From NCBI GenBank assembly GCA_021107755.1, contig JAIOSF010000024.1, positions 1 to 64,000 of the forward strand: a stretch of DNA of 64,000 nt. Reading direction: 5' to 3'. This stretch comes from Arcobacteraceae bacterium (lineage in GTDB: Bacteria; Campylobacterota; Campylobacteria; Campylobacterales; Arcobacteraceae). Shown piece after piece: positions 2,420-37,574 of the stretch. Within the stretch, counting starts at the first letter, position 1; the number at the start of each line of letters is the position of its first letter. The translations under genes and the position numbers were made by a program. Below the pieces are notes generated by a model. It was not told the origin of the DNA. It was given only the letters and a program-made list of their open reading frames with translations, and made no database searches.

Positions 2420-3451
2420 ATGATAATTGAAAACTCTAATGTTCTTATGCAATCAAAAGTTGAATCTCAAGAGATGCACTACTCTTCAAGTGAAGTGGTT
2501 GAGATGAAATATGACTTTCTCTCAATAGTTGAAGAAAATGGATATAAAGCTAAAGTAGCTACAGAACAACTTCTAAGCACTGATTTTAGATCCCATAAAT
2601 CAAAAGTTCACAAAACAATCTACAATTACGAAAATCAAATGTGTTCTAAAGAGCAAATGAATAAGCAAATTATCGAAAATATTATCAATAGGTTTTTTAA
2701 TAGTGATAAAGATATTTTTAAATATCCACAAAAAGATGTGAACAATGAACAAAATCTCAAAAACACTTCTATAACAATAGAAGCAAAAGAGGAATACTAT
2801 AAAAAACAAACTGTAGACTTCTCTACCTCTTTAAAGATAGAAACACCAAATAAAAACTATAGTATGAATCTAGAAGTTGCTTTTTCAAAAGAACTTTATG
2901 AGGCACATAGTATGGAATTGCAATTTGGAAATCCAAACCTAAAAGATCCTTTGGTTATTAACTATGGTGAAGATAGTAATCCTTTTGAAAATCTCTCAAC
3001 TCTACGGTTTGAATTTGATTTGAATAATGATGGAGAAAATGAGCTTATCCCACTTTTGAAAAAAGGTTCGGGTTTTTTAAGTCTTGATAAAAACAACAAT
3101 GGAAAAATAGACAATGGTCATGAACTTTTTGGACCTAAAACAGATGAGGGATTTCAAGAGTTAGCACAATATGATTATGACAACAATAACTGGATAGATG
3201 AAAATGATGCAATATTTAACAAACTAAAAGTTTGGCAAATCAATGAAGATGGAGACAACAATCTTGTATCTCTTTTAGATTTGAATATTGGTGCTATATA
3301 CCTAGGCAGTGTAGAAAGTGGCTTTGAGTATCAAAAGAAAATAGATAAAGTAGATGCGGTACAAAGAAGCAATGGAATTTATGTGAAAAATGATGGTTCA
3401 GGTATTCGTATGATAAACGCACTCGATATAGCTTTAGAAACAGCCGTTTAA
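2420..3451 (+). CDS. EF-hand/VCBS-like calcium-binding protein
   Basis: A 343-residue protein. Residues 1 to about 185 are not recognised. From about residue 195 it carries a block common in large calcium-binding and RTX-associated proteins: DLNNDGENEL, DKNNNGKIDNGHELFG and DYDNNNWIDENDAIF are DxDxDG-type loops, followed by KLKVWQINEDGDN. These loops predict Ca2+ binding. No signal peptide or transmembrane segment is visible, so either the protein is cytoplasmic or it leaves by a non-Sec route such as type I secretion. The start at 2420 has an upstream AGAAAGGA ribosome-binding site. It stands alone between the small basic protein and the acyltransferase. Confidence 0.65.
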   Translation: MIIENSNVLMQSKVESQEMHYSSSEVVEMKYDFLSIVEENGYKAKVATEQLLSTDFRSHKSKVHKTIYNYENQMCSKEQMNKQIIENIINRFFNSDKDIFKYPQKDVNNEQNLKNTSITIEAKEEYYKKQTVDFSTSLKIETPNKNYSMNLEVAFSKELYEAHSMELQFGNPNLKDPLVINYGEDSNPFENLSTLRFEFDLNNDGENELIPLLKKGSGFLSLDKNNNGKIDNGHELFGPKTDEGFQELAQYDYDNNNWIDENDAIFNKLKVWQINEDGDNNLVSLLDLNIGAIYLGSVESGFEYQKKIDKVDAVQRSNGIYVKNDGSGIRMINALDIALETAV

Positions 3452-3644: not shown

Positions 3645-3713
3645 ATGATGAAAAAAGACGAATTTAGTTCTATAAAAAGAATATATTATAGTAGTGAAAG
3701 TGAGTTACTATGA
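3645..3713 (+). CDS. 22-codon leader ORF overlapping the acyltransferase start
   Basis: A short reading frame (MMKKDEFSSIKRIYYSSESE plus LL) has the best ribosome-binding site of this unit (GAGGGGGA, 5 bp before the ATG). It ends in TGA overlapping the next gene's ATG as ATGA. The acyltransferase gene itself has only a weak ribosome-binding site, so ribosomes finishing this frame probably re-initiate there. It may be a translational-coupling leader rather than a functional peptide. No attenuator hairpin was found. Confidence 0.4.
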   Translation: MMKKDEFSSIKRIYYSSESELL

Positions 3714-4348
3714 GATACCATTTTCTTAATGTCACAAATGAAGAGATTTTAGACAAAGTTCACCGTTTTAGATATAAGGTGATGCATGAAGAGTTAGGTT
3801 GGATTCAATCTAACCCAAATGGTAAAGAGAGAGATAGCTATGATGACTACTGTGATCAATTTGCAATTTTGAATTATGAAGGAGAGGTCTGTGCTACTGT
3901 ACGGTTAATCCACCACTCACCAATAGGATATCCCACAGAAAGATTTTTGGATTTAGAACAGTCCAAATATCAGTTTAATAGAGACAAACTTGCTGAAATG
4001 TCTAGAATTTTTATCGATCCCAAACACCGAAATATGAGAGAAACAAAAATTTTCCTTATCTCTTTAGCAAAAAGTCTTGTTTATGAAAAGATGAAAGAGC
4101 ACGGTATTGAATATTGCTACGGGATGATGGAACAAAAATTTATAAAGCTTGTCAATATGTTTAAAATTCCCTATCAACCTATTGGTGAACTGCAACAAGA
4201 CTATGATAAATTTAAATATCCAAGTATGATGCTTGTAAAAGAACTTGAAAAACTAAATCCACAACTTGAAAAATACTGGAAAAAATATAAAAAAGTTTCT
4301 CTCTTTCACCTTGACACAAAGATTAAGCCAGAGCAAGTTATTATATAA
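3710..4348 (+). CDS. LuxI/FeeM-superfamily N-acyltransferase (putative acyl-amino-acid or acyl-lactone synthase)
   Basis: A 212-residue protein with the GNAT-like fold of autoinducer synthases and N-acyl amino acid synthases. Residues equivalent to the conserved LuxI set can be read off: R21, W31, D46, D49, R65, F79, E96 and R99, the last two in the EMSR motif that matches the LuxI E101/R104 pair. Members of this superfamily move an acyl chain from acyl-ACP or acyl-CoA to an amine. The product here is unknown and could be an N-acyl amino acid instead of a homoserine lactone. No LuxR-type receptor is visible nearby. Translation is probably coupled to the short frame at 3645. A TonB receptor/c-di-GMP operon follows after 151 bp. 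Confidence 0.7.
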   Translation: MRYHFLNVTNEEILDKVHRFRYKVMHEELGWIQSNPNGKERDSYDDYCDQFAILNYEGEVCATVRLIHHSPIGYPTERFLDLEQSKYQFNRDKLAEMSRIFIDPKHRNMRETKIFLISLAKSLVYEKMKEHGIEYCYGMMEQKFIKLVNMFKIPYQPIGELQQDYDKFKYPSMMLVKELEKLNPQLEKYWKKYKKVSLFHLDTKIKPEQVII

Positions 4349-4499: not shown

Positions 4500-6617
4500 G
4501 TGAATCGTAATTTATTTAGAAATACTTTAATTGCTAGTACACTTTCGCTCATTAACTTTACGAGCTTAAATGCTCAAAATAATGATATATTAAGTTCCAT
4601 TTCTAACGATATGAATCGATTTAATACGGTTGCTACAATTACAAAACAAAATGAACATTATCAACCATATATTATCTCTGTATTTCAAGGTAAAGATTTA
4701 GAAAAACTTGGTATCTTAAATCTAAAAGAAGCACTCCAACTTGTCCCTGGGGTAGATATGGCTACAGATAATGTAAATATTCAAACTCCAATTTTTAGAG
4801 GTTCAAACTCCCTAGGATATGGACAATCAAAACTTTTCATTGATGATGTGTTAGTAAATAATCTCTTTTTTGATTCATACTCTGAATATCTAGGAATGCC
4901 AATTGAGATGATCAAAAGAATTGAAGTAGTAAGAGGTCCAGGAAGTAAAACTAACGGAGTAAATGCTTATGCTGGATCGATTAAAATCATCACCTATGCT
5001 GAAGATTTTAAAGATTTTGAGTCTAATGATAAGCTTGTTTTTAAATATGGTTCAAATAAATATAGAATGGGTGGTTTTATCAAAAAGTTTAAAACTGAAA
5101 ACCTTGATGCAACTATAGATTTCTATTATCAAAAGGATGATAAAAAACTTTATGCAGGTCCAGATGGGTACGCAACTGGTTCTATGAGTAGCGTCCCTCT
5201 TGGATATGACAATACAGCTCTCTCTCAAACAGGTGATGCACCAGTATGGAATGAAGATTATTCATTAGGACTTAACCTTAAATATAAAGACTTCTCTGTT
5301 AAAGGGCGTTACCTTGATCATACACAAGGGAGTGCTTATGGTATCAACCGTTCATTACCTCAAGATGATGATAGAGTAAAAATACCAAACTATTATCTTG
5401 AACTTGGGTATAATAAAGATATTGGTAATTTTGATGTTGAGATAAAAGCTGGAGTTAAATATGATGCATTTGACTCAAAAGCGAAACTAGCTCCAAATGG
5501 TCTTGTATATTTGGATGCGTATCAATATAGTATAGATGGCACTATTAATACAGTTAATTTCCCTGATGGAATCTATGGAGAGCATCTAGCAAAACAAAGA
5601 ACACTTTACCAATCTTCTTATCTTACCTATAATGGATTGGATCAACATCTTATCACTGCGGGTTATAGACTACTTAAAGAGGAAACCATAGAGATGACCT
5701 CTAAATTATCAAACTGGACAACAGGTGATGTAGCACTTGTTGATTATACAGAAACCTATCCATTTTTTGATAAAAATGCAAAACGATATACTCAGATATT
5801 CTCTTTACAAGATCAGTTTCAATATAGTGATAAGCTTCACTTTATGTATGGATTTAATTATGAAAAAACATCTTATGAAAATGCTGGAGTTGAACCTAGA
5901 GTATCGATGGTATATCAACAAAACTTAAGCAATATATTTAAAGCAAGCTACTCACGAGCACATAGAAATCCTTCGTGGCAAGAGATGTTTACAATGAACA
6001 ATAGGGAAAGACGAGGTAGTACTGATTTAGAACCAGAAATTGTAGATGCCTTTGAACTTGCGTATATTAAGAAGTTTTCAAGTAACACATATTTACAATC
6101 AAACCTTTTTTATCTAATGAATAAAGATCAAATATATAATTCAAATGGAGATACTGTATATGGAAATCTCTTAGATACAGATATATATGGTGCAGAATTT
6201 GAATATTCTGGACATATTACAGCTGTAGATAAATTGTATTTAAACTATACTTACCTAACAGGAAAATCAAAAATAAAAGATACAGGAGATACTACAAATC
6301 TTACAAATGCTGCACATCATCTAGCTAAAGGATATTATATCTATAAGCTTACTAATGATATATCCCTTAGCGGTATTGTAAAATATGTGAGTTCTAAAAA
6401 AAGGTTTCAAGAAGACAATCGTGGAAAAGTACCGTCGTATACTACCTTAGATACTACATTGAACTATAAAAACCGTAAAGATAACTACGATGTAACGATT
6501 GGTATAAAAAATATTTTTGATGAAGATGTATCTTATCCATCTCCACCAGATGACTATGTAGAAGATTATGTCCAAGAGGGCAGAACCTTTTTTGTAACTT
6601 TAAGAAAGGAGTTTTAG
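4500..6617 (+). CDS. TonB-dependent outer-membrane receptor
   Basis: A 705-residue receptor with a signal peptide (about residues 1-25, ending SLNAQ), a plug domain (about 45-165, with LKEALQLVPGVDM and IKRIEVVRGPGS) and a 22-strand-type barrel ending in terminal phenylalanine (FVTLRKEF). It starts with GTG behind GTAGGAGAAAA. Receptors of this type import siderophores, haem, cobalamin or other large ligands using TonB energy; the ligand here cannot be read from sequence. The canonical N-terminal TonB box is not obvious. The next two genes follow without a gap (1 bp and 22 bp), suggesting the receptor feeds a periplasmic sensor and a c-di-GMP enzyme. Confidence 0.9.
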   Translation: MNRNLFRNTLIASTLSLINFTSLNAQNNDILSSISNDMNRFNTVATITKQNEHYQPYIISVFQGKDLEKLGILNLKEALQLVPGVDMATDNVNIQTPIFRGSNSLGYGQSKLFIDDVLVNNLFFDSYSEYLGMPIEMIKRIEVVRGPGSKTNGVNAYAGSIKIITYAEDFKDFESNDKLVFKYGSNKYRMGGFIKKFKTENLDATIDFYYQKDDKKLYAGPDGYATGSMSSVPLGYDNTALSQTGDAPVWNEDYSLGLNLKYKDFSVKGRYLDHTQGSAYGINRSLPQDDDRVKIPNYYLELGYNKDIGNFDVEIKAGVKYDAFDSKAKLAPNGLVYLDAYQYSIDGTINTVNFPDGIYGEHLAKQRTLYQSSYLTYNGLDQHLITAGYRLLKEETIEMTSKLSNWTTGDVALVDYTETYPFFDKNAKRYTQIFSLQDQFQYSDKLHFMYGFNYEKTSYENAGVEPRVSMVYQQNLSNIFKASYSRAHRNPSWQEMFTMNNRERRGSTDLEPEIVDAFELAYIKKFSSNTYLQSNLFYLMNKDQIYNSNGDTVYGNLLDTDIYGAEFEYSGHITAVDKLYLNYTYLTGKSKIKDTGDTTNLTNAAHHLAKGYYIYKLTNDISLSGIVKYVSSKKRFQEDNRGKVPSYTTLDTTLNYKNRKDNYDVTIGIKNIFDEDVSYPSPPDDYVEDYVQEGRTFFVTLRKEF

Positions 6618-7235
6618 ATGAAAAAAATACTTTTTCTTTATTTAACGCTTCTTAACATAGCTTTTGGATATAACTATGACGACTTAGTACTTAAAGCACA
6701 AGCTTCTATTTTCCCTAAAATTATCCTTTTAGATAAAAAAATAGAAGATAAACTTATTGATGGAAAAATAGTTTATACTATTGTTTATGATAAAACAGAC
6801 TATGATACTGCTCTATCTATTGAAAAGTTTATAAATAAAAACTTTAAAGGGCAATTAGATAGATATAATTATGAAATAAACTTAGTTGATTTTACAAACT
6901 TTTCGATACAAACAGAAGCTTCAGCAATTTATGTACTTAATTTAACAGAACATATTGAAAATATTGCTGCAATAGCTAGAGAAAAAGGGATTATCTCCTT
7001 TTCATATGATATAAATAATCTCAAAAAAGGATTGATGTTCTCTTTAGTTATTGAAAAATCGACTGTTTTATATCTTGAAAAAGAAAATTTATATACAAAA
7101 AAAATAGATTTTGTAGATGCTCTACTCCAAATGGTTCGATTTGTTGAGAAAGATTATGCAAATCAAGAAAATATACTATATAATAAATTAAATACAAAAA
7201 ACTTGTATGCTGATTTATTGTATATTCACAAATAA
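6618..7235 (+). CDS. YfiR-like periplasmic protein (DUF4154-type)
   Basis: A 205-residue exported protein with a short signal peptide (residues 1-17, ending IAFG). The sequence resembles the YfiR/DUF4154 pattern: a QASIFPKIILLDKKI start, a Rossmann-like middle, and the block IAREKGIISFSYDINNLKKG, which parallels the family's GMI-x-F-x(n)-INxxAA stretch. YfiR proteins sit in the periplasm and restrain the membrane diguanylate cyclase YfiN. Its ATG follows the receptor's stop codon immediately, with AAAGGAG inside the receptor's last codons, and the GGDEF/EAL gene starts 22 bp later. It lacks the cysteine pairs of Pseudomonas YfiR, so redox control is unlikely. The family assignment is by pattern and moderate in strength. 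Confidence 0.65.
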   Translation: MKKILFLYLTLLNIAFGYNYDDLVLKAQASIFPKIILLDKKIEDKLIDGKIVYTIVYDKTDYDTALSIEKFINKNFKGQLDRYNYEINLVDFTNFSIQTEASAIYVLNLTEHIENIAAIAREKGIISFSYDINNLKKGLMFSLVIEKSTVLYLEKENLYTKKIDFVDALLQMVRFVEKDYANQENILYNKLNTKNLYADLLYIHK

Positions 7236-7257
7236 TAGTTTAAAGTAAAGTTTAGGA

Positions 7258-9195
7258 ATGAATAAGAAAATAAAATCTCTCTCTAGTAAAATAGTTTTTT
7301 TAATTGCAGCAGTAACTTTAGTTTCAATCTTACTTATTTTTTATGTTTTTGAAAAAATAAACAAAGAAGCGTTCTATAATGTTGAGATGGAAAAAGCACA
7401 GTTAGTATTAAGTACTATTGAACCTCTTATTGCGGTAAATATTTATCTAAACCTGAATGATAGAATTGATCAATTAACCAAACAACTTATTGCAAATCCA
7501 AATATTTTAGCTGTTAAAGTACTACAAGACAATACTCTTATAAATGAACAGAAATCAGAAGAATTTGAAACCAATATTGATGATTCTTTTATTGTTGAAC
7601 ATGCTATTTTTCAGCCAAACTCTAAAAAAGAGATAGGGAGTTTAGTTCTTACTTATTCCAATAAAAACTACAAAGAACTCATCAATAGGTATACAACACT
7701 ATTGATTAAACTACTGTTTTTATTTGCAATATTTTTCTTGGTTTTTAGTTTATATGTAAAAAAACTTCTCTCACCTTTACGACAAATAGCAAGGCTATTA
7801 AAAAGTTACTCTCCAGATAAAAATATCAATATTCCATTTGATCATCAAAACAATGAGATAGGATTTATCTCAAATGCACTTAATAATATGCAACATAGTA
7901 TAGTTCAATACTCTAAGCAACAACAAGATATCAATAAATATCTTGAAGAGAAAGTAGATGAAAAGACTCAAGAGTTACAAAAGCAACTCTATACAAATGC
8001 ACTAACAGGTCTACCTAATAGACGAAGTCTTCTTCGTGATATTAATAATTATAACGATGGTGCTTTATTGGTAGTTAATATTGATGATTTTAAAGAGATT
8101 AATGACTTCTTTGGACAAGCAGTAGGAGATCGTGTTCTTATATCTTTTTCAAAAAAATTATCTAATATAATTACAAAAAAGTCTAATATTACACTTATAC
8201 ATATTTCTGGTGATGAATTTGCCTTGTTTTTTGCAAAAAAACCCTCTAAAGATCAGTTTGTAGAGTTCACAACAACACTTCTTGAAAAAGTTGAAAAAAT
8301 GATTTTTTATCATGAAAATAATGAATTAACTTTACGGGTAACTATTGGTGGTGCTTATCAAATTCAAGAAGCTTTAGAAAAAGCAGATATTGCTTTAAAA
8401 TCAGCAAAAAAACAGGGGAAAGATTTTTTACTTTATGATGAAACTTTAAATGTTGAACAACAATATAAAAACAATATGGAGTGGACAAAAAAAATCAACT
8501 TAGCTATTGAAAATGATAAAATAAGTGCTTTTTTTCAACCTATATTTGATAATAAAACAAATAAACTCGTAAGTGCTGAATGTTTAATTCGTTTAATTGA
8601 TGACGATAGTAACATTATAACTCCATATCACTTTTTAACTATTGCAAAAAAAAGTAAGCTTTACTCTAAACTAACAAAGATAATGATTCAAAAAAGTTGT
8701 CAATACTTTGAACATTTAGATTGTGATTTTTCTATTAACTTATCGGTTGAAGATATACTCGATATTGAGATTACTGAATATATCTCACATAATATAAAAA
8801 AATACAATGTAAGTAAAAAAATTATATTTGAACTTTTAGAAACAGAAGGTATTGAAAACTATGAAGAGGTTTCTTCTTTTATTAATGAGATGAAATCCTT
8901 AGGGTGTAGAATTGCAATTGATGATTTTGGTTCGGGATACTCAAACTTTGAATACCTACTTCAACTAAATATTGACTATATTAAAATAGATGGTTCATTA
9001 ATAAAAAATCTTGATACAGATAGAAATGCCCAAATTATTGTTGAAACAATTGTTAGTTTTGCTAAAAAACTTGATATTTTAGTTATAGCAGAATATGTTC
9101 ATAATGAAGCTATTTATGCAAAAGTAAAAGAGTTAAATATTGATCGTTCACAAGGTTTTTTTCTTGCAGAGCCTAAAAATGCTATCACTTTATAA
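7258..9195 (+). CDS. Membrane GGDEF/EAL protein (c-di-GMP turnover)
   Basis: A 645-residue protein: a transmembrane helix (about 11-30), a periplasmic sensor of roughly 115 residues, a second helix (about 148-168), a HAMP-like linker and coiled coil, then GGDEF (about 250-400) and EAL (about 415-640) domains. The cyclase signature reads SGDEF (317-321), a variant often still active. The EAL signature reads ECL (441-443), while IDDFGSGYSN and DYIKIDGS are intact; the usual AEGVE motif is AEYVH. Both activities are therefore possible but the phosphodiesterase half is the more questionable. The topology matches YfiN, and the YfiR-like gene lies directly upstream. Confidence 0.9.
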   Translation: MNKKIKSLSSKIVFLIAAVTLVSILLIFYVFEKINKEAFYNVEMEKAQLVLSTIEPLIAVNIYLNLNDRIDQLTKQLIANPNILAVKVLQDNTLINEQKSEEFETNIDDSFIVEHAIFQPNSKKEIGSLVLTYSNKNYKELINRYTTLLIKLLFLFAIFFLVFSLYVKKLLSPLRQIARLLKSYSPDKNINIPFDHQNNEIGFISNALNNMQHSIVQYSKQQQDINKYLEEKVDEKTQELQKQLYTNALTGLPNRRSLLRDINNYNDGALLVVNIDDFKEINDFFGQAVGDRVLISFSKKLSNIITKKSNITLIHISGDEFALFFAKKPSKDQFVEFTTTLLEKVEKMIFYHENNELTLRVTIGGAYQIQEALEKADIALKSAKKQGKDFLLYDETLNVEQQYKNNMEWTKKINLAIENDKISAFFQPIFDNKTNKLVSAECLIRLIDDDSNIITPYHFLTIAKKSKLYSKLTKIMIQKSCQYFEHLDCDFSINLSVEDILDIEITEYISHNIKKYNVSKKIIFELLETEGIENYEEVSSFINEMKSLGCRIAIDDFGSGYSNFEYLLQLNIDYIKIDGSLIKNLDTDRNAQIIVETIVSFAKKLDILVIAEYVHNEAIYAKVKELNIDRSQGFFLAEPKNAITL

Positions 9196-11042: not shown

Positions 11043-14000
11043 ATGAAACATTATAAATTACTTTTATTGACTATTCTTTGTATCACATCTCTTTTTGCAG
11101 AATCAAATCAAAAAATCTCACTACAACTTTTATGGAAGCATCAATTTGAATTTGCTGGGTTTTATATGGCAAAAGAGAAAGGTTTTTATAAAGATTTAGG
11201 ACTAGATGTAGTGTTCAAAGAATATCAGATTGGCTCAAACATCTCACAAGATGTAATTTCTGGGAAAGCAGACTTTGGAGTTGGTTATTCAGGAATCATT
11301 TTAGATAAACTTAATGGAGATGATATAAAGCTCTTAAATGCTATATATCAATCCTCCCCACATGTTTTAGTAAGCTTGCAATCATCTAATATAAAATCAA
11401 TAAAAGATTTTAAAGGTAAGAAAATATCTATGACAAATAGTCATAGTAAAACAGCCAATATTAAAAGTATGATTTATTCACAAAAAATCTCATTAGATGA
11501 TATGAGAATAGAAAAGTTTTCCTATGGTATTGACGCATTACTGGACAAAAAAACTGATCTTCAATCTGTATACTTATCTAATGAAATTTTTAAACTTCAA
11601 AAAAAAAAGATAGCTTATAAAATATGGGATCCAAAAGATTATGGCTTTAGTTTTTATGATAATATTCTTTTTACATCCACAAAACTTATTGCTAAAAATC
11701 CAAAACTTGTAAAAGATTTTCAAAAAGCATCTTTAATGGGGTGGGAATATGCTTTTAATAATATTGATGAAACAATAGAACTAATTCTTAAAAAATATAA
11801 CACACTAAATAAAACAAAAGAAGCTTTAACTTATGAAGCAAATGAACTAAAAAAGCTTGCTTATTATGAGACAAAAACTCTGGGGAAAATAGAAGAATCT
11901 AAAATACAAAGAATAATTGATATATATAATCTTATGGGACTTGTACAAAACACAATACCTATCACAGAATTTATATATAATCCAAATCAAAAGAAAATAA
12001 TTTTAACTAATGAAGAAAAAAAATATTTAAAATCAAATCCTACTATTACAGTACACAACGAAACAGATTGGGCACCTTTTAATTATAATGAAAATAATGA
12101 ACCAAAAGGCTTTTCAATAGACTATATGAATTTATTAGCTGAAAAAACCAATCTAGAAGTTAAATATATTACAGGAACAGATTGGTCAAAATTTATCCAA
12201 ATGATAAAAAATAAAAAACTTGATGTGATGCTTAATATTATACAATCTAAAAAAAGAGAAAAGTTTATAGACTTCACATCATCTTATGAACAAATAAAAC
12301 AGTCACTCTTTACAAATCTTGATAATATTAAAAGTTTAAAAGACCTTAGTGGAAAAACTATAGCCTTACCAAAAGATTTTTATATTATTGAATATATAGA
12401 GGAACACTATCCTGATATAAAAATCCAAACTCATAAAAATATACAAGAGTGTATTTATGCAGTGATTGAAAAAAGAGCAGATGCACTTATAGAAAATTTT
12501 ACAGTTGTAAATTATATATTACAAAAATATAATCTCTCTATAAAAAATGTTAAATTAAATCTTGGAGAAGAGTTTGATTTTGAGATGAGGATTGGAGTGG
12601 TAAAAAACAATCCACTATTAAAAAATATTTTACAAAAAGCTATGAATAGTATTACTCAAGAGGAGATAAATGCTATTAAAAACAAGTGGTCAATAACTAA
12701 CAATACAATTAATAAAAGCAAACTCAATCTTACAAGACTTGAAATAGAACATTTAAAAAATAAAGAAACTATCACTATGTGTATAGATCCAAATTGGATG
12801 CCTTTTGAAAAATTTGAAAAAGGAGAATATATAGGGATAACTGCTGATTACTTTAAAATATTTGAACAAAATCTTGGAAAAAAAATAAAAGTAATAACAA
12901 CCAAAACTTGGAATCAATCTTTAGAGTTTTCCAAGTCAAGAAAATGCGATCTTCTCTCTCTAACTATGGAAACACCTACAAGAAAAAAATACTTGAATTT
13001 CACCACACCCTATTTAAAAGTTCCTTTAGTAGTAGCAACTCGATTAGATGTGACATTTATTAATGATATTAAAGCACTTGAGCATAAACCTATTGGTATT
13101 CCAAAAGGATATGCTTATGCAGAGCTATTAAAAATAAAGTATCCATTTTTAAATATTGTAGAAGTTGAAAACCTTAATGATGGACTTGAAAAAGTGAGAA
13201 AAGGAAACCTTTTTGGATATATTGGAACTTTAGCTTCTGTGGGATATATGTTTCAAACACAATATACAGGAGAATTGAAAATTGCTGGTAAATTTGATGA
13301 GACATGGGAGCTAGGAATTGGTGTAAGAAACGATGATGCAATACTGCTTAATATCATGGAAAAAGTTATTCAAAGTATTGATAATGCACAGAGTCAAACT
13401 ATTCTTAGTAAATGGTTAGCAATAAAATATGAGAAAAAAGTCGATTATACCTTGCTATGGCAGATTTTAGTTGCTATATTGATTATTGCTTTTTTTATAA
13501 TTTATAGACAGGTTATCTTAAATAATGTAAATAAAAACTTGCAAAAAATAGTAGATGATAAGACTAAAGAATTACAACTACTTAATGAAACTCTTGAAAA
13601 TAAAGTAGAACAAAGAACACAGGAATTAAATGTCTCTAAAATGAAAATAAAAGAATCTTATAATGAAATAAAACATATTTTAGACTCAACTATGGAGTGT
13701 GTTTTTATTTTTGAAAATGGGTATTGTATAGATGTAAATGATGAAACTGTACGATTATTTGGTTATCCTGATAAAAATACAATGTTAGGAAAAAAAGCTA
13801 CAGAATTTGTTGCAAATAACTCTGTAGTAACTGTTGCAAATAATATCCAAAATAACTATACCAAAGCTTATGAGATAGAGATGAAAAGATATGATGGAAC
13901 AACTTTTCCAGGTTTTGTAAAAGGGAGTAGCTTTACAAGAAGAGATAAGCTTGTAAGAGTTACCACTGCATTAGATTTAACAGAATTAAAATCTAAAGAG

Positions 14001-14729
14001 TCCCTATTAATACAACAATCAAAAATGGCTGCATTAGGAGAGATGATAGCAAATATTTCACATCAGTGGAGACAACCATTAAGTATTATTACTACTGTTG
14101 CTAGTGGAATAAAACTCAAACTAGAATATAATGTCTTTAATAAAGAAGATGAGATAAAAAACTTAGATATTCTTATCAATTCAGCAACTTATTTATCAAC
14201 TACTATTGATGATTTTAAAAATTTTATAAATCCAAAAAAAATAAATAAAAAATTTAATATAAAAACAATTATAAATAAAACAATTGAAATGTTTGGTAAA
14301 AATTTTTCAAGTCATGGTATTGATATTATTACAAATATTAAAGATACAGAAACTATTGGAAACGAAAATGAATTGCTACAAGTAATTATCAATATCCTTA
14401 ATAACTCAAAAGATGTTTTAACCTCACAAAAATTAGATAAAAAACTTATTTTTATAGATATTGATACTCTTGATGAAAATATTATAATCAGCATAAAAGA
14501 CAATGGAGGTGGGATAAATAATGCTATTTTATCACAAATATTTGATGCTTATTTTACTACTAAACATAAAAGTATAGGTACAGGAATTGGTCTTTATATG
14601 AGTTATCAAATAATTAAAAATAGTTTCAATGGAAGTATCATTGCTTCAAACGAAAAATTTAATTATGAGAACAATATATATTATGGAGCAAAATTTACTA
14701 TCTCTTTACCTATAAACAATAAGGTTTAA
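11043..14729 (+). CDS. Large sensor histidine kinase with NMT1 and two SBP3-type ligand domains
   Basis: A 1228-residue membrane kinase. After a signal peptide (1-20) come an NMT1/THI5-like domain (about 25-240), two family 3 solute-binding domains (about 340-560 and 575-800), a transmembrane helix near residue 810, a coiled coil, a PAS domain (about 880-980) and the kinase core. The H-box is SHQWRQPLS, and the ATPase carries an N-box (NNSKDV), DNGGGI and GTGIGLYMSY. Three periplasmic binding domains in one receptor suggest it senses small solutes, such as amino acids or a pyrimidine-like compound. No response regulator gene is adjacent, so its partner lies elsewhere. The gene starts 17 bp after ygiQ. 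Confidence 0.9.
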   Translation: MKHYKLLLLTILCITSLFAESNQKISLQLLWKHQFEFAGFYMAKEKGFYKDLGLDVVFKEYQIGSNISQDVISGKADFGVGYSGIILDKLNGDDIKLLNAIYQSSPHVLVSLQSSNIKSIKDFKGKKISMTNSHSKTANIKSMIYSQKISLDDMRIEKFSYGIDALLDKKTDLQSVYLSNEIFKLQKKKIAYKIWDPKDYGFSFYDNILFTSTKLIAKNPKLVKDFQKASLMGWEYAFNNIDETIELILKKYNTLNKTKEALTYEANELKKLAYYETKTLGKIEESKIQRIIDIYNLMGLVQNTIPITEFIYNPNQKKIILTNEEKKYLKSNPTITVHNETDWAPFNYNENNEPKGFSIDYMNLLAEKTNLEVKYITGTDWSKFIQMIKNKKLDVMLNIIQSKKREKFIDFTSSYEQIKQSLFTNLDNIKSLKDLSGKTIALPKDFYIIEYIEEHYPDIKIQTHKNIQECIYAVIEKRADALIENFTVVNYILQKYNLSIKNVKLNLGEEFDFEMRIGVVKNNPLLKNILQKAMNSITQEEINAIKNKWSITNNTINKSKLNLTRLEIEHLKNKETITMCIDPNWMPFEKFEKGEYIGITADYFKIFEQNLGKKIKVITTKTWNQSLEFSKSRKCDLLSLTMETPTRKKYLNFTTPYLKVPLVVATRLDVTFINDIKALEHKPIGIPKGYAYAELLKIKYPFLNIVEVENLNDGLEKVRKGNLFGYIGTLASVGYMFQTQYTGELKIAGKFDETWELGIGVRNDDAILLNIMEKVIQSIDNAQSQTILSKWLAIKYEKKVDYTLLWQILVAILIIAFFIIYRQVILNNVNKNLQKIVDDKTKELQLLNETLENKVEQRTQELNVSKMKIKESYNEIKHILDSTMECVFIFENGYCIDVNDETVRLFGYPDKNTMLGKKATEFVANNSVVTVANNIQNNYTKAYEIEMKRYDGTTFPGFVKGSSFTRRDKLVRVTTALDLTELKSKESLLIQQSKMAALGEMIANISHQWRQPLSIITTVASGIKLKLEYNVFNKEDEIKNLDILINSATYLSTTIDDFKNFINPKKINKKFNIKTIINKTIEMFGKNFSSHGIDIITNIKDTETIGNENELLQVIINILNNSKDVLTSQKLDKKLIFIDIDTLDENIIISIKDNGGGINNAILSQIFDAYFTTKHKSIGTGIGLYMSYQIIKNSFNGSIIASNEKFNYENNIYYGAKFTISLPINNKV

Positions 14730-18259: not shown

Positions 18260-20848
18260 GTGAGTAGTAGCGGACTAAATAAAAGCTTGAAAATCTATAA
18301 GGGATTAAAAATATTTGATAATATTGCACCTTATATTAAACATATGGAATCGGTCGAAGATTATAGAGAAAATCTTCAATTATTAGAAAAAAGTTGGGAT
18401 AACCTTACAATTATGGGGCAACTTGGTGGAAATAATATTGATATGAACTCTACAAAAAAGAGTTTTGCAAATTTAACAGAACAACTATTAAACCATCTTG
18501 GAATTGAAACTATCAAAAAAACATCAAGACAGATGCAAGCAAAAGCACAAATTGCGGTTGATATAGTTATACGAAATCTTTTTGAAAGAACAGCAGATAT
18601 TGGATTTTTAGCAACTGATGAAGATATAAGGGATTTTTTAAATCACACAGTATCAAAATATGATGAATCGTATGAAAATAATATTTCTCATCTTAAAAAT
18701 AGATTTGAGGAGTATGTTCAAAAATATAGTGTTTATTTTGATATTGTATTAATGGATACACATGGAAATGTTTTAGTAAATCTTGATGAAAATACAAAAA
18801 TAAAACAATCAAAAGATGAGATTATAAATCTATCTCTTAATACACAAGAGGACTATGTAGAAACATATAAATACCACGATTTTTCACCAAAATATAAAAA
18901 AACATTAGTTTATTCTTATAAAGTAACTAAAACAAATGAAAAAGACTCAGAGGCTATCGGTATACTTGCACTTTGCTTTAAATTTACAGATGAGATGAAA
19001 GGTATTTTTGAAAACCTTGTTAATAAAAGCAATCAAGAGTGTCTAACACTATTAGATAAAAGTGGTCATGTAATTGCAAGTAGTGACAAATACCAAATAC
19101 CTCTTGGTGCAAAAATGGAAATTGCAACACAAGGTATGCATAAAATTGTCTCTTTTGGAGGTCGATACTATCTTTCTAAAACAGCTGCAACTAATGGTTA
19201 TCAAGGATTTAAAGGGCTTGATTGGTATGGACATATTATGGTTCCATTGGAGCATGCCTTTTTAGAGGATCAAAGTAATTTAGAGATTTCAGAAGATATT
19301 CTTCAAGCTATATTACAATATGGAGATAGTTTTTCAGACGAATTAAAACAGATACCAATACAAGCAAATCAGATACAAGAAAACCTTAACCGTGCAGTAT
19401 GGAATGGAAATGTATCTCAAAGTAAAGATAGTGAATCAGATAAAGGTTTTTCAAGACTTCTTTTAAATGAGATTGCTAAAACAGGAGAAGAGACAAAAAA
19501 CATTTTTAAATCTTCTATTATAAATCTTACTAAAACAATTATACTCAATGACACTATCTCTATAGCTTCACTTATGATAGACATTATGGATAGAAACCTT
19601 TACGAAAGAGCTAATGACTGTAGATGGTGGGCATTAAATTCAGAATTTAGAACTATTTTAGATAATAATATTATAACAAGTGATCTCAAAAATAAACTTT
19701 CTTCTACATTATCATATATAAATAACTTATACACAGTATATACAAACCTATTTATTTATGATAAAAATGGAGTTATCTTAGCTGTTTCACAAAACAACCA
19801 AGAGCATCTAATAGGGAAAAAACTAGATACTCTTTGGTCAAATAAAACATTGAGTATGAAAGATTCTTCAAAATACTGTGTTTCAGATTTTGAGTCAACT
19901 GATTTGTATGATAATAAACCAACATATATCTACAATGCTCCAATAGAATCATCTAAAAGTGAGAATACAATTGTAGGTGGAATTGGAATAGTATTTGACT
20001 CAGAGATAGAATTTAAAGCAATGATTGATGAATCGATGCCAAGAACTGTAAAAGATGAAGTAAAAAATGGTGTATTTGGAGTATTTACAACAAAAAATAA
20101 AACCATAATCTCATCATCTAATCAAAAGTATTCAGTTGGTTCTTATTTAGATATAACTGATAAGTTTTTCAATCTTAAAAATGGTGAAACATATAGTGAA
20201 ATCATCACTTTAGACAACAAATTTTATACAATAGGTGTAAAATGTTCTAATGGATATAGAGAATTTAAAAATGGGAGTGATGATTATAAAAATGATGTGT
20301 ATTCATTTTTCTTCTCATATATAAGTGAAGCAAATATACCTATAGAAACATCAAAACCAAAGCTCCTAAGTAATGATGTAGTTAAAACCCAATGTGATGA
20401 TTGTCAAGAGATTGCTACTTTTAGAATTGGAAGTAAATACCTTGGTTCATATTGTAAAGATGTAGTTCAGTCTGTAAGTATTGATAAATTAGAGACTGCC
20501 ATCAACCTTGATGATACAAATTGCTTCAAAGGGACAATTATCCATAATAAAATGGCAGTAAGTGTTCTTGATATTTCATCATTTATTAAAGAACCTGTGG
20601 ATACAAATTATAATGAGATTGTAATTGTAGATTATGAAGATAGCCAAGAGCACCACTTTGTAGGACTCTTAGTAAGTAAATTAGAAAATATCGTTGATAT
20701 AGAAACAAAAAAACTAAAACCACTTGAACAAAATCTTATCACTGGTGGTGCATTGATTCAAAGTATTGTATCAGTAGAACAAAACGGAGATAATAAGCTC
20801 TTAACTATCCTAGATATTAAAAAGCTTGCAAATAAACTTACTAACTAG
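18260..20848 (+). CDS. Double-Cache sensor protein fused to a CheW domain
   Basis: An 862-residue protein starting at GTG. Two related sensor modules can be read: one begins near residue 97 (IAVDIVIRNLFERTADIGFL) and the other near 433 (SLMIDIMDRNLYERANDCRW). Each continues into Cache-like sequence with DTHGNVLVN or YDKNGVILAV. The last 150 residues (about 715-862) are a CheW domain: ATFRIGSKYLGSYCKDVVQS, HNKMAVSVLDISSFI and FVGLLVSKLENIVDI. No signal peptide or transmembrane helix is apparent, so the protein seems cytoplasmic. It may recruit CheA/receptor arrays in response to an internal ligand. The ligand is unknown. Confidence 0.7.
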   Translation: MSSSGLNKSLKIYKGLKIFDNIAPYIKHMESVEDYRENLQLLEKSWDNLTIMGQLGGNNIDMNSTKKSFANLTEQLLNHLGIETIKKTSRQMQAKAQIAVDIVIRNLFERTADIGFLATDEDIRDFLNHTVSKYDESYENNISHLKNRFEEYVQKYSVYFDIVLMDTHGNVLVNLDENTKIKQSKDEIINLSLNTQEDYVETYKYHDFSPKYKKTLVYSYKVTKTNEKDSEAIGILALCFKFTDEMKGIFENLVNKSNQECLTLLDKSGHVIASSDKYQIPLGAKMEIATQGMHKIVSFGGRYYLSKTAATNGYQGFKGLDWYGHIMVPLEHAFLEDQSNLEISEDILQAILQYGDSFSDELKQIPIQANQIQENLNRAVWNGNVSQSKDSESDKGFSRLLLNEIAKTGEETKNIFKSSIINLTKTIILNDTISIASLMIDIMDRNLYERANDCRWWALNSEFRTILDNNIITSDLKNKLSSTLSYINNLYTVYTNLFIYDKNGVILAVSQNNQEHLIGKKLDTLWSNKTLSMKDSSKYCVSDFESTDLYDNKPTYIYNAPIESSKSENTIVGGIGIVFDSEIEFKAMIDESMPRTVKDEVKNGVFGVFTTKNKTIISSSNQKYSVGSYLDITDKFFNLKNGETYSEIITLDNKFYTIGVKCSNGYREFKNGSDDYKNDVYSFFFSYISEANIPIETSKPKLLSNDVVKTQCDDCQEIATFRIGSKYLGSYCKDVVQSVSIDKLETAINLDDTNCFKGTIIHNKMAVSVLDISSFIKEPVDTNYNEIVIVDYEDSQEHHFVGLLVSKLENIVDIETKKLKPLEQNLITGGALIQSIVSVEQNGDNKLLTILDIKKLANKLTN

Positions 20849-36773: not shown

Positions 36774-37574
36774 ATGAAAAAAAATATTTTTATCACACTT
36801 GTACTGGCTTTTATAATATCACTTATTATCCATTTTATTGCATTTGATTTAATCAATAAAAAAATAGCCAATGCAAAACTAAGCTACCCTACTACAAATA
36901 TAAAAAAGAAACCCTCACCTAAAAAAGGTTTTTCAAATGTGAAGTTTGTAAAACTCAAAAAAGAAGTACCAAAAGAAAAACCTATAGAGCAAAAGAAACC
37001 TACTATAAACCAAGAAGTTAAAAAGATTTTGGAACCTATAAAAAAACCTATTGCAAAAAAGTCTTCAAAACCAAAAGCAATAGAGCTTCCAAAGGTTCAA
37101 AAACCTGATTTAAAAAGTTTTTTTACAGTTTCAAAAGAAGATTTAAAAAGAATCCAAGAGGAAAAAGAAGCAAGAACTAAACAAATTACAGAGTTTCAAA
37201 AAGAGATTCAAAAGATAAAACAATTAGATCAAATAACACAAGAATATATCAGACTCTATGGAGACACCTATTTTACCTTCTCAAAAGAACAAAAAACATA
37301 TCTCAAAAATAACCTAAGCCGTATAGGTATGATAACACAGCGATATCTAGTTTACCCTGGACTTTCCATAAAAACACGACAAAGTGGTATCAATGTGATT
37401 GAATTTGTTCTCCATCCTAATGGTGATATATCAGATGTAAGGATAACAGATAGTTCAAACTATACAGCACTAGATAAAAATACCGTAGAAACTATCCAAT
37501 TAGCCTACAAAGACTATCCAAAACCCTCTGAGCCAACTCAAATAAAAATATATGTACGGTATATCTTATACTAA
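36774..37574 (+). CDS. TonB-family energy transducer
   Basis: A 266-residue protein with the TonB plan: one N-terminal transmembrane helix (about 5-28, FITLVLAFIISLIIHFIAFD), a long lysine/proline-rich periplasm-spanning linker with KKPSPKK and EKPIEQKKP, a coiled coil, and a TonB C-terminal domain (about 190-266: INVIEFVLHPNGDISDVRIT, SSNYTALDKNTVETIQLA, IKIYVRYILY). With ExbBD, TonB proteins energise receptors such as the one at 4500. No exbB/exbD genes are in the window. The next gene starts on its stop codon (1-bp overlap). Confidence 0.8.
   Translation: MKKNIFITLVLAFIISLIIHFIAFDLINKKIANAKLSYPTTNIKKKPSPKKGFSNVKFVKLKKEVPKEKPIEQKKPTINQEVKKILEPIKKPIAKKSSKPKAIELPKVQKPDLKSFFTVSKEDLKRIQEEKEARTKQITEFQKEIQKIKQLDQITQEYIRLYGDTYFTFSKEQKTYLKNNLSRIGMITQRYLVYPGLSIKTRQSGINVIEFVLHPNGDISDVRITDSSNYTALDKNTVETIQLAYKDYPKPSEPTQIKIYVRYILY

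Follow-up and report, generated by a model that had tools for sequence, protein, structure and literature searches.

What signal reaches a YfiR-type periplasmic protein when the gene next to it encodes a TonB-dependent outer-membrane receptor? The question is raised by a locus in a 64,000-nucleotide stretch of DNA from an Arcobacteraceae bacterium (GenBank assembly GCA_021107755.1, contig JAIOSF010000024.1, positions 1 to 64,000; hereafter the window), where a receptor of this kind, a YfiR-like protein and a membrane-bound enzyme of cyclic di-GMP (c-di-GMP) metabolism are encoded one after the other. In the 2012 YfiBNR paper (PMC3375315), the activating signal is listed as unanswered; a candidate for YfiR-type systems is whatever cargo the neighbouring TonB receptor brings in. 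We found that a gene for a GNAT-fold acyltransferase precedes these three genes, and the conservation of this four-gene unit in marine and vent-type Campylobacterota suggests that it may sense a self-made, lipid-like molecule from outside the cell. A search of the open-licence literature returned no description of the combination of GNAT, TonB receptor, YfiR-like protein and c-di-GMP enzyme.

All four genes lie on the forward (+) strand. The GNAT gene (3710..4348) encodes 212 amino acids (aa), and its stop is followed after 151 bp by the start of the gene for the receptor (4500..6617, 705 aa, GTG start with an AGGAG resembling a ribosome-binding site; Pfam PF07715 and PF00593). Next come the YfiR-like periplasmic protein (6618..7235, 205 aa, with a Sec-type signal peptide) and the inner-membrane HAMP-GGDEF-EAL enzyme (7258..9195, 645 aa). 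The original prediction described the last three as an operon at 4500-9195 in which the genes are separated by 0 and 22 bp. Same-strand open reading frames (ORFs) are present exactly in this arrangement, but the interval proved incomplete, since the upstream GNAT gene is the fourth member of the unit and had been overlooked.

The linkage of the GNAT to the receptor module was evaluated across 397 Campylobacterota genomes (genomes, loci and families carry our own labels G, L and f). Strong GNAT matches occurred in 31 genomes. The gene lay in a YfiR locus in 25 of these; in two (G423, G433) it adjoined the receptor where the contig ends or is broken, and in two more (G021, G416) it was found away from a retained receptor unit. 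A YfiR-like gene co-occurred with the GNAT in 29/31 genomes, as compared to 50/397 genomes overall. Among 87 YfiR-like loci retrieved from the phylum, the GNAT was located directly 5' of the receptor gene in 27, in most cases with an overlap of a few bases, and all 27 were associated with an output of about 645 aa of the GGDEF-EAL type (25 clear cases and two in which the output ORF was split or cut). No GNAT was observed among the 34 loci with histidine kinase or GGDEF outputs, versus 25 among the GGDEF-EAL loci (Fisher 2e-8, uncorrected for relatedness). Genes further 5' of the unit vary between lineages, and genus g67 has a divergent GGDEF-EAL gene while GNAT, receptor and YfiR-like genes still stand together. 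That the genes are chance neighbours without functional link is refuted by these neighbourhood counts, since the gene order is conserved in several families despite different flanks and re-arranged versions, and we regard this explanation as practically negligible. In three genomes a leucine-carboxyl-methyltransferase-type gene (PF04072) lies directly 5' of the GNAT (L038:3210-4097, L169:4457-5344, L170:5896-6783). These genomes, L038, G021 and G416, are the only ones where the two genes are adjacent, and they include both in which the GNAT lies away from the receptor; in L038 the row runs methyltransferase-GNAT-receptor-YfiR-enzyme. This enzyme possibly contributes a methyl-ester step to the synthesis of the GNAT product. 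As a fixed part of the unit it was rejected, being limited to three genomes and absent from that of the window.

Several lines of evidence point to the kind of product the GNAT may make. The window protein matched Pfam PF13444, FeeM and Autoind_synth above cut-off, and within the family Acetyltransf_5 was matched by 25/25 members, Autoind_synth by 18/25 and FeeM by 14/25. The model TIGR03694 was matched by 25/25 members at E 0.001 (best 7.9e-31), although the window protein scored 59 bits against a cut-off of 112. Profile matches in the PDB were mainly synthases of N-acyl homoserine lactones (AHLs). The AlphaFold model (pLDDT 89) retrieved with Foldseek a top ten consisting entirely of AHL synthases (BjaI, TofI, MesI, RpaI, LasI), with FeeM next. 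The invariant residues R21, E40, D42, D45, E96, S98 and R99 match, as mapped through PDB profile alignments, the charged core of LuxI-type enzymes. We therefore consider this protein a predicted N-acyl amino acid or AHL-type synthase. A Neisseria member of the same acyltransferase family makes N-acyl ornithines and lysines (PMC9762135). The protein shares fold, charged core, and profile and structure matches with the PEP-CTERM/exosortase-associated synthases of TIGR03694, FeeM, Nas proteins and LuxI-type AHL synthases, but differs from them in scoring below the TIGR03694 cut-off, in mostly lacking an exosortase in the same genome, in the absence of a LuxR-type domain and in its tie to a receptor/c-di-GMP unit. 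A PEP-CTERM/exosortase role was rejected for most genomes, as exosortase is absent from 28/31 GNAT genomes and from the window genome (G000), where TIGR03694 is also below cut-off. A plasmid search with the GNAT gave weak matches only.

The receptor was the most constant neighbour of the YfiR-like genes, being present within three ORFs in 78/87 loci and adjacent on the same strand in 64/87. Outputs were modular (GGDEF-EAL in 46 of the 87 loci, histidine kinase in 21 and GGDEF alone in 13). The original prediction had placed a TonB receptor where YfiB would be expected, and indeed no ORF for a YfiB OmpA-like lipoprotein was found between 3710 and 9195; the receptor itself turned out to be a conserved neighbour. 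The receptor-YfiR pairing and the modularity of outputs are by themselves already known. NCBIfam holds models for such a pair, TOL_0243 and TOL_0244 of Thalassolituus (NF053591 and NF053590), a YfiR-like protein and a TonB receptor with consecutive locus numbers, and PMC3375315 describes distant, modular yfiN-yfiR systems, mostly without YfiB, in which one periplasmic module is combined with GGDEF-EAL or kinase outputs. TonB is unmentioned in the text of that paper, no acyl synthase is described in the passages considered, and no description of a GNAT at TOL_0243/TOL_0244 was found. The window receptor scored 103 bits against the TOL_0244 model (cut-off 645), and the window YfiR-like protein was unmatched by NF053591. 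The nearest solved structure of the receptor by sequence is the colicin I receptor CirA. A search for the STN signalling domain was negative, with Pfam at E<=1 giving only the Plug and the TonB_dep_Rec barrel, which makes the FecA/FpvA route unlikely. Four TonB energy-transducer C-terminal domains were detected in the window genome, one of them at 37344-37562 of the window. Family f18 has a conserved trio ahead of the operon, namely a gene for a small CxxCH heme-type protein, one for an HpcH/HpaI aldolase and a folD-like gene in divergent orientation (L023, L086, L093, L097, L098, L171, L172).

Assignment of the 205-aa protein relied on its fold and its relatives. No match to Pfam PF13689 (DUF4154) was obtained for the window protein, nor did a DUF4154 search of the window genome find anything, and its sole direct profile match was NCBIfam YfiR NF053586 (E 0.019, 15.1 bits, cut-off 85). 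The profile of its family retrieved no YfiR among its PDB matches and aligned weakly with E. coli YfiR in hhalign, though with the C-terminus in register. On the other hand, the structure prediction that the original prediction had proposed as a check did return the YfiR fold. The AlphaFold model (pLDDT 84.8) repeatedly matched P. aeruginosa YfiR in Foldseek (4zhu, 4xjy, 4yn7, 4yn9, 5eb1), the best match being 4zhu_B with a TM score of 0.76 by target length. DUF4154 was matched at E<=1 by 10/17 aligned relatives, and at least three of them (L026, L033, L034) reached the PF13689 cut-off. The YfiR-like character claimed at first thus holds, and we take the protein to be a distant YfiR homologue. 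Substrate-binding proteins were also retrieved with the model, with Rhodothermus marinus structures annotated as 'substrate-binding protein' (6k1x, 8wgl, 5z6v) at the top of the ranking; from these fold matches, YfiR-type proteins may bind small ligands. Relatives were present in 13/100 related genomes and, across the phylum, in 14/69 genera. A single-protein scan of named genomes matched only Arcobacter sp. SZUA-449 (L038), and a plasmid search recovered no relative of the protein. One genome, G064, holds an expanded set of six YfiR-like loci (L026, L033, L037, L133 and L134 among them) with several kinase or receptor partners.

The third gene of the original trio encodes the enzyme that would complete a YfiR-YfiN pair. 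Nearly all output proteins of YfiR-like loci have two predicted transmembrane helices that flank a periplasmic domain about 115 residues long, which in the window enzyme covers residues about 31-146 (7348..7695). CHASE8 was not matched by this domain alone but by 7/30 of its relatives (best E 3.7e-18), and hhalign of the family profile against E. coli DgcN/YfiN covered 102 columns (prob 89%, E 2.3e-6). By these profile comparisons, the periplasmic domain is of the CHASE8, YfiN type and is followed by HAMP (PF00672, residues 167-216, 7756..7905) and GGDEF (PF00990, residues 248-388, 7999..8421). Since the YfiR-like and CHASE8-like pair is shared by GGDEF-EAL, GGDEF and kinase outputs, and hhalign matches the periplasmic domains of the GGDEF-EAL type to those of the non-EAL types at 99.6%, it is the periplasmic step that stays constant in these systems. 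The YfiR fold together with the CHASE8/YfiN-type domain makes a YfiR-to-YfiN relay in the window well grounded, and by homology we consider it likely that this pair contributes that step to the proposed chain.

Such a pair could also work as in P. aeruginosa YfiBNR, with the YfiR-like protein and the enzyme sensing envelope or redox stress and the receptor being co-regulated cargo. The pair is homologous to YfiNR, and the window unit shares with YfiBNR and with E. coli YfiR-DgcN-YfiB a periplasmic YfiR-fold protein beside a CHASE8, HAMP and GGDEF membrane enzyme, in a similarly tight layout (yfiR and dgcN of E. coli overlap by 11 bp). Differences from these systems are, however, numerous: the unit has no YfiB lipoprotein and possesses an additional EAL half, a TonB receptor and an N-acyl synthase-like gene. 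The two conserved cysteine pairs of YfiR (PMC4655355) are missing from the 205-aa protein, which contains no cysteine at all, so YfiR-type redox control does not apply. Taken with the constancy of the receptor across output types, these differences leave stress sensing improbable.

The two catalytic halves of the enzyme indicate the direction in which c-di-GMP might change. The original prediction of a cyclase half was sustained, as the SGDEF motif starting at residue 317 fits [GSA]G[DE]EF with the second G in place, but its description of an 'EAL-like' half with ECL was an understatement. ECL sits in AECLIRL (residues 440-446) of a complete EAL domain (PF00563, residues 412-639, 8491..9174) and is not degenerate, because the middle letter of this motif varies freely among relatives. 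The window enzyme has the full catalytic set E441, N494, E525, D555/D556, K576, E612 and Q632, and these positions are kept across 25 GNAT-linked enzymes, five of which have a degenerate GGDEF motif (GSDEF, SSDEF, SADEY). Judged from these motifs, the enzyme is no less likely to act as a phosphodiesterase, or with both activities, than as a cyclase. The intact EAL residues also bear on a LapD-like inside-out device, in which the GGDEF-EAL protein would bind c-di-GMP, and the YfiR-like protein and the receptor would receive its outward signal. LapD is among the full-length profile matches of the enzyme, but a LapD_MoxY_N domain was matched only once among the relatives' periplasmic domains (E 0.05), the domain present is CHASE8, and the operon has no LapG-like gene. 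Given the preserved EAL site and the CHASE8 domain we rejected this explanation, which we consider very improbable.

Gene order, folds, catalytic residues and the conserved association are shown by the results above, whereas we infer what the GNAT produces, what the ligand is, and in which direction and with which sign the signal runs. We tentatively propose, at somewhat short of an even chance, a four-component circuit that senses a self-made N-acyl molecule and passes the information through the outer membrane to c-di-GMP. The GNAT would join a fatty acyl group to an amino acid in the cytoplasm, or make an AHL-like molecule, and this product would leave the cell and be captured at the outer membrane by the TonB-energised receptor. 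Its arrival in the periplasm would alter the hold of the YfiR-like protein on the CHASE8 domain of the enzyme. Here we slightly favour a model in which the YfiR-like protein itself binds the ligand, given how closely its fold resembles substrate-binding proteins; alternatively, the YfiR-like protein might directly contact the receptor plug. The HAMP linker would then transmit the change to the GGDEF and EAL halves, and c-di-GMP would shift, probably mainly through the EAL phosphodiesterase.

In FpvA-type cell-surface signalling, the cell makes pyoverdine and detects it through a TonB receptor. The proposed circuit would resemble it in having a TonB receptor that senses a molecule of the cell's own making, but in the window the receptor has no STN domain, the unit contains no sigma or anti-sigma genes (FecI/FecR partners), and the path would run instead through YfiR and CHASE8 to c-di-GMP. 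The autoinducer-binding domain of LuxR-type regulators (PF03472) is absent from all 31 GNAT genomes (the E. coli control was positive), which separates the unit from LuxI/LuxR quorum sensing. If the GNAT makes the ligand, the unit would represent a route of cell-to-cell signalling in which the signal is recognised at the outer membrane and read out directly through a second messenger, in a phylum in which the 31 genomes searched have no LuxR-type receptor.

The main competing explanation is that a nutrient from the environment, either siderophore-like or hydrophobic, is sensed or imported by the receptor and its arrival is reported to c-di-GMP by YfiR-YfiN. The GNAT would then not be the signal source, but would modify the compound or, under shared control, synthesise an N-acyl lipid of the surface or membrane. 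This is a real possibility, which we place only slightly behind the proposed circuit. Receptor profiles fit siderophore, heme, B12 and TOL_0244 families alike, TOL_0244 increases sevenfold on n-C28 alkane (PMC6304351), and three GNAT relatives weakly matched OlsB, an ornithine N-acyltransferase. The receptor, YfiR-like and GGDEF-EAL genes are moreover kept without the GNAT in several genomes. However, the restriction of the GNAT to one output type, its usual overlap with the receptor gene, its best fold matches to AHL synthases and FeeM, and the presence of a divergent GNAT where the usual one was lost all argue against this explanation.

A number of observations weigh against the self-made signal we propose. 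In G426, G201, G205 and G338 the receptor module of the GNAT clade occurs with no intact GNAT found, and in G316 (L084) the receptor, YfiR-like and GGDEF-EAL genes are kept while the GNAT is reduced to fragments with stops. Conversely, G063 and G353 encode the GNAT without a YfiR-like gene (in G353 at a contig end). The association counts are non-independent, as all GNAT loci belong to one YfiR clade. Within the window, the 151-bp gap makes separate transcription of the GNAT possible, and a promoter and terminator scan of the unit gave signals no better than chance. Finally, the YfiR assignment leans on fold and relatives, direct profile scores being weak.

The history of the unit was assessed from phylogenies of its components. 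GNAT-linked YfiR proteins all fall within one clade of 40 (support 100/97), where that of the window is nested among genomes of a different family (f16), and this points to horizontal transfer of the window unit. No YfiR-like match was found in the three other genomes of the window genus, all incomplete assemblies. Distances of receptor, YfiR-like protein and enzyme correlate with each other at r about 0.95, and those of the GNAT with them at 0.82-0.86. The GNATs of the window, L038, G021, G416 and G353 form a clade of their own, for which the history of the receptor module was rejected (p-AU 0.0005); a wider clade of window-type GNATs with the other f16 GNATs was not rejected (p 0.24). A flanking gene of 286 aa is common to G416 and its near relative G192, and the GNAT is present at that site in G192 and missing in G416, which carries a divergent GNAT elsewhere, beside a gene of the leucine-carboxyl-methyltransferase type. 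Because the GNAT tree rejects the history of the receptor module and G416 has this divergent copy, it seems that the synthase was replaced without the loss of its pairing with the receptor module.

Other genes of the window were also observed. Just 5' of the GNAT gene (2420-3451) lies a gene for a 343-aa protein with calcium-binding-like stretches of the D-x-D-x-D-G type, for which EF-hand matches were sub-threshold only. Close downstream of the unit (11043-14729) a 1228-aa kinase comprises an NMT1-like region, two family-3 solute-binding stretches, PAS and histidine kinase domains. Further on, an 862-aa protein (18260-20848) combines a weak Cache-like region with a C-terminal CheW domain, which is an unusual combination.

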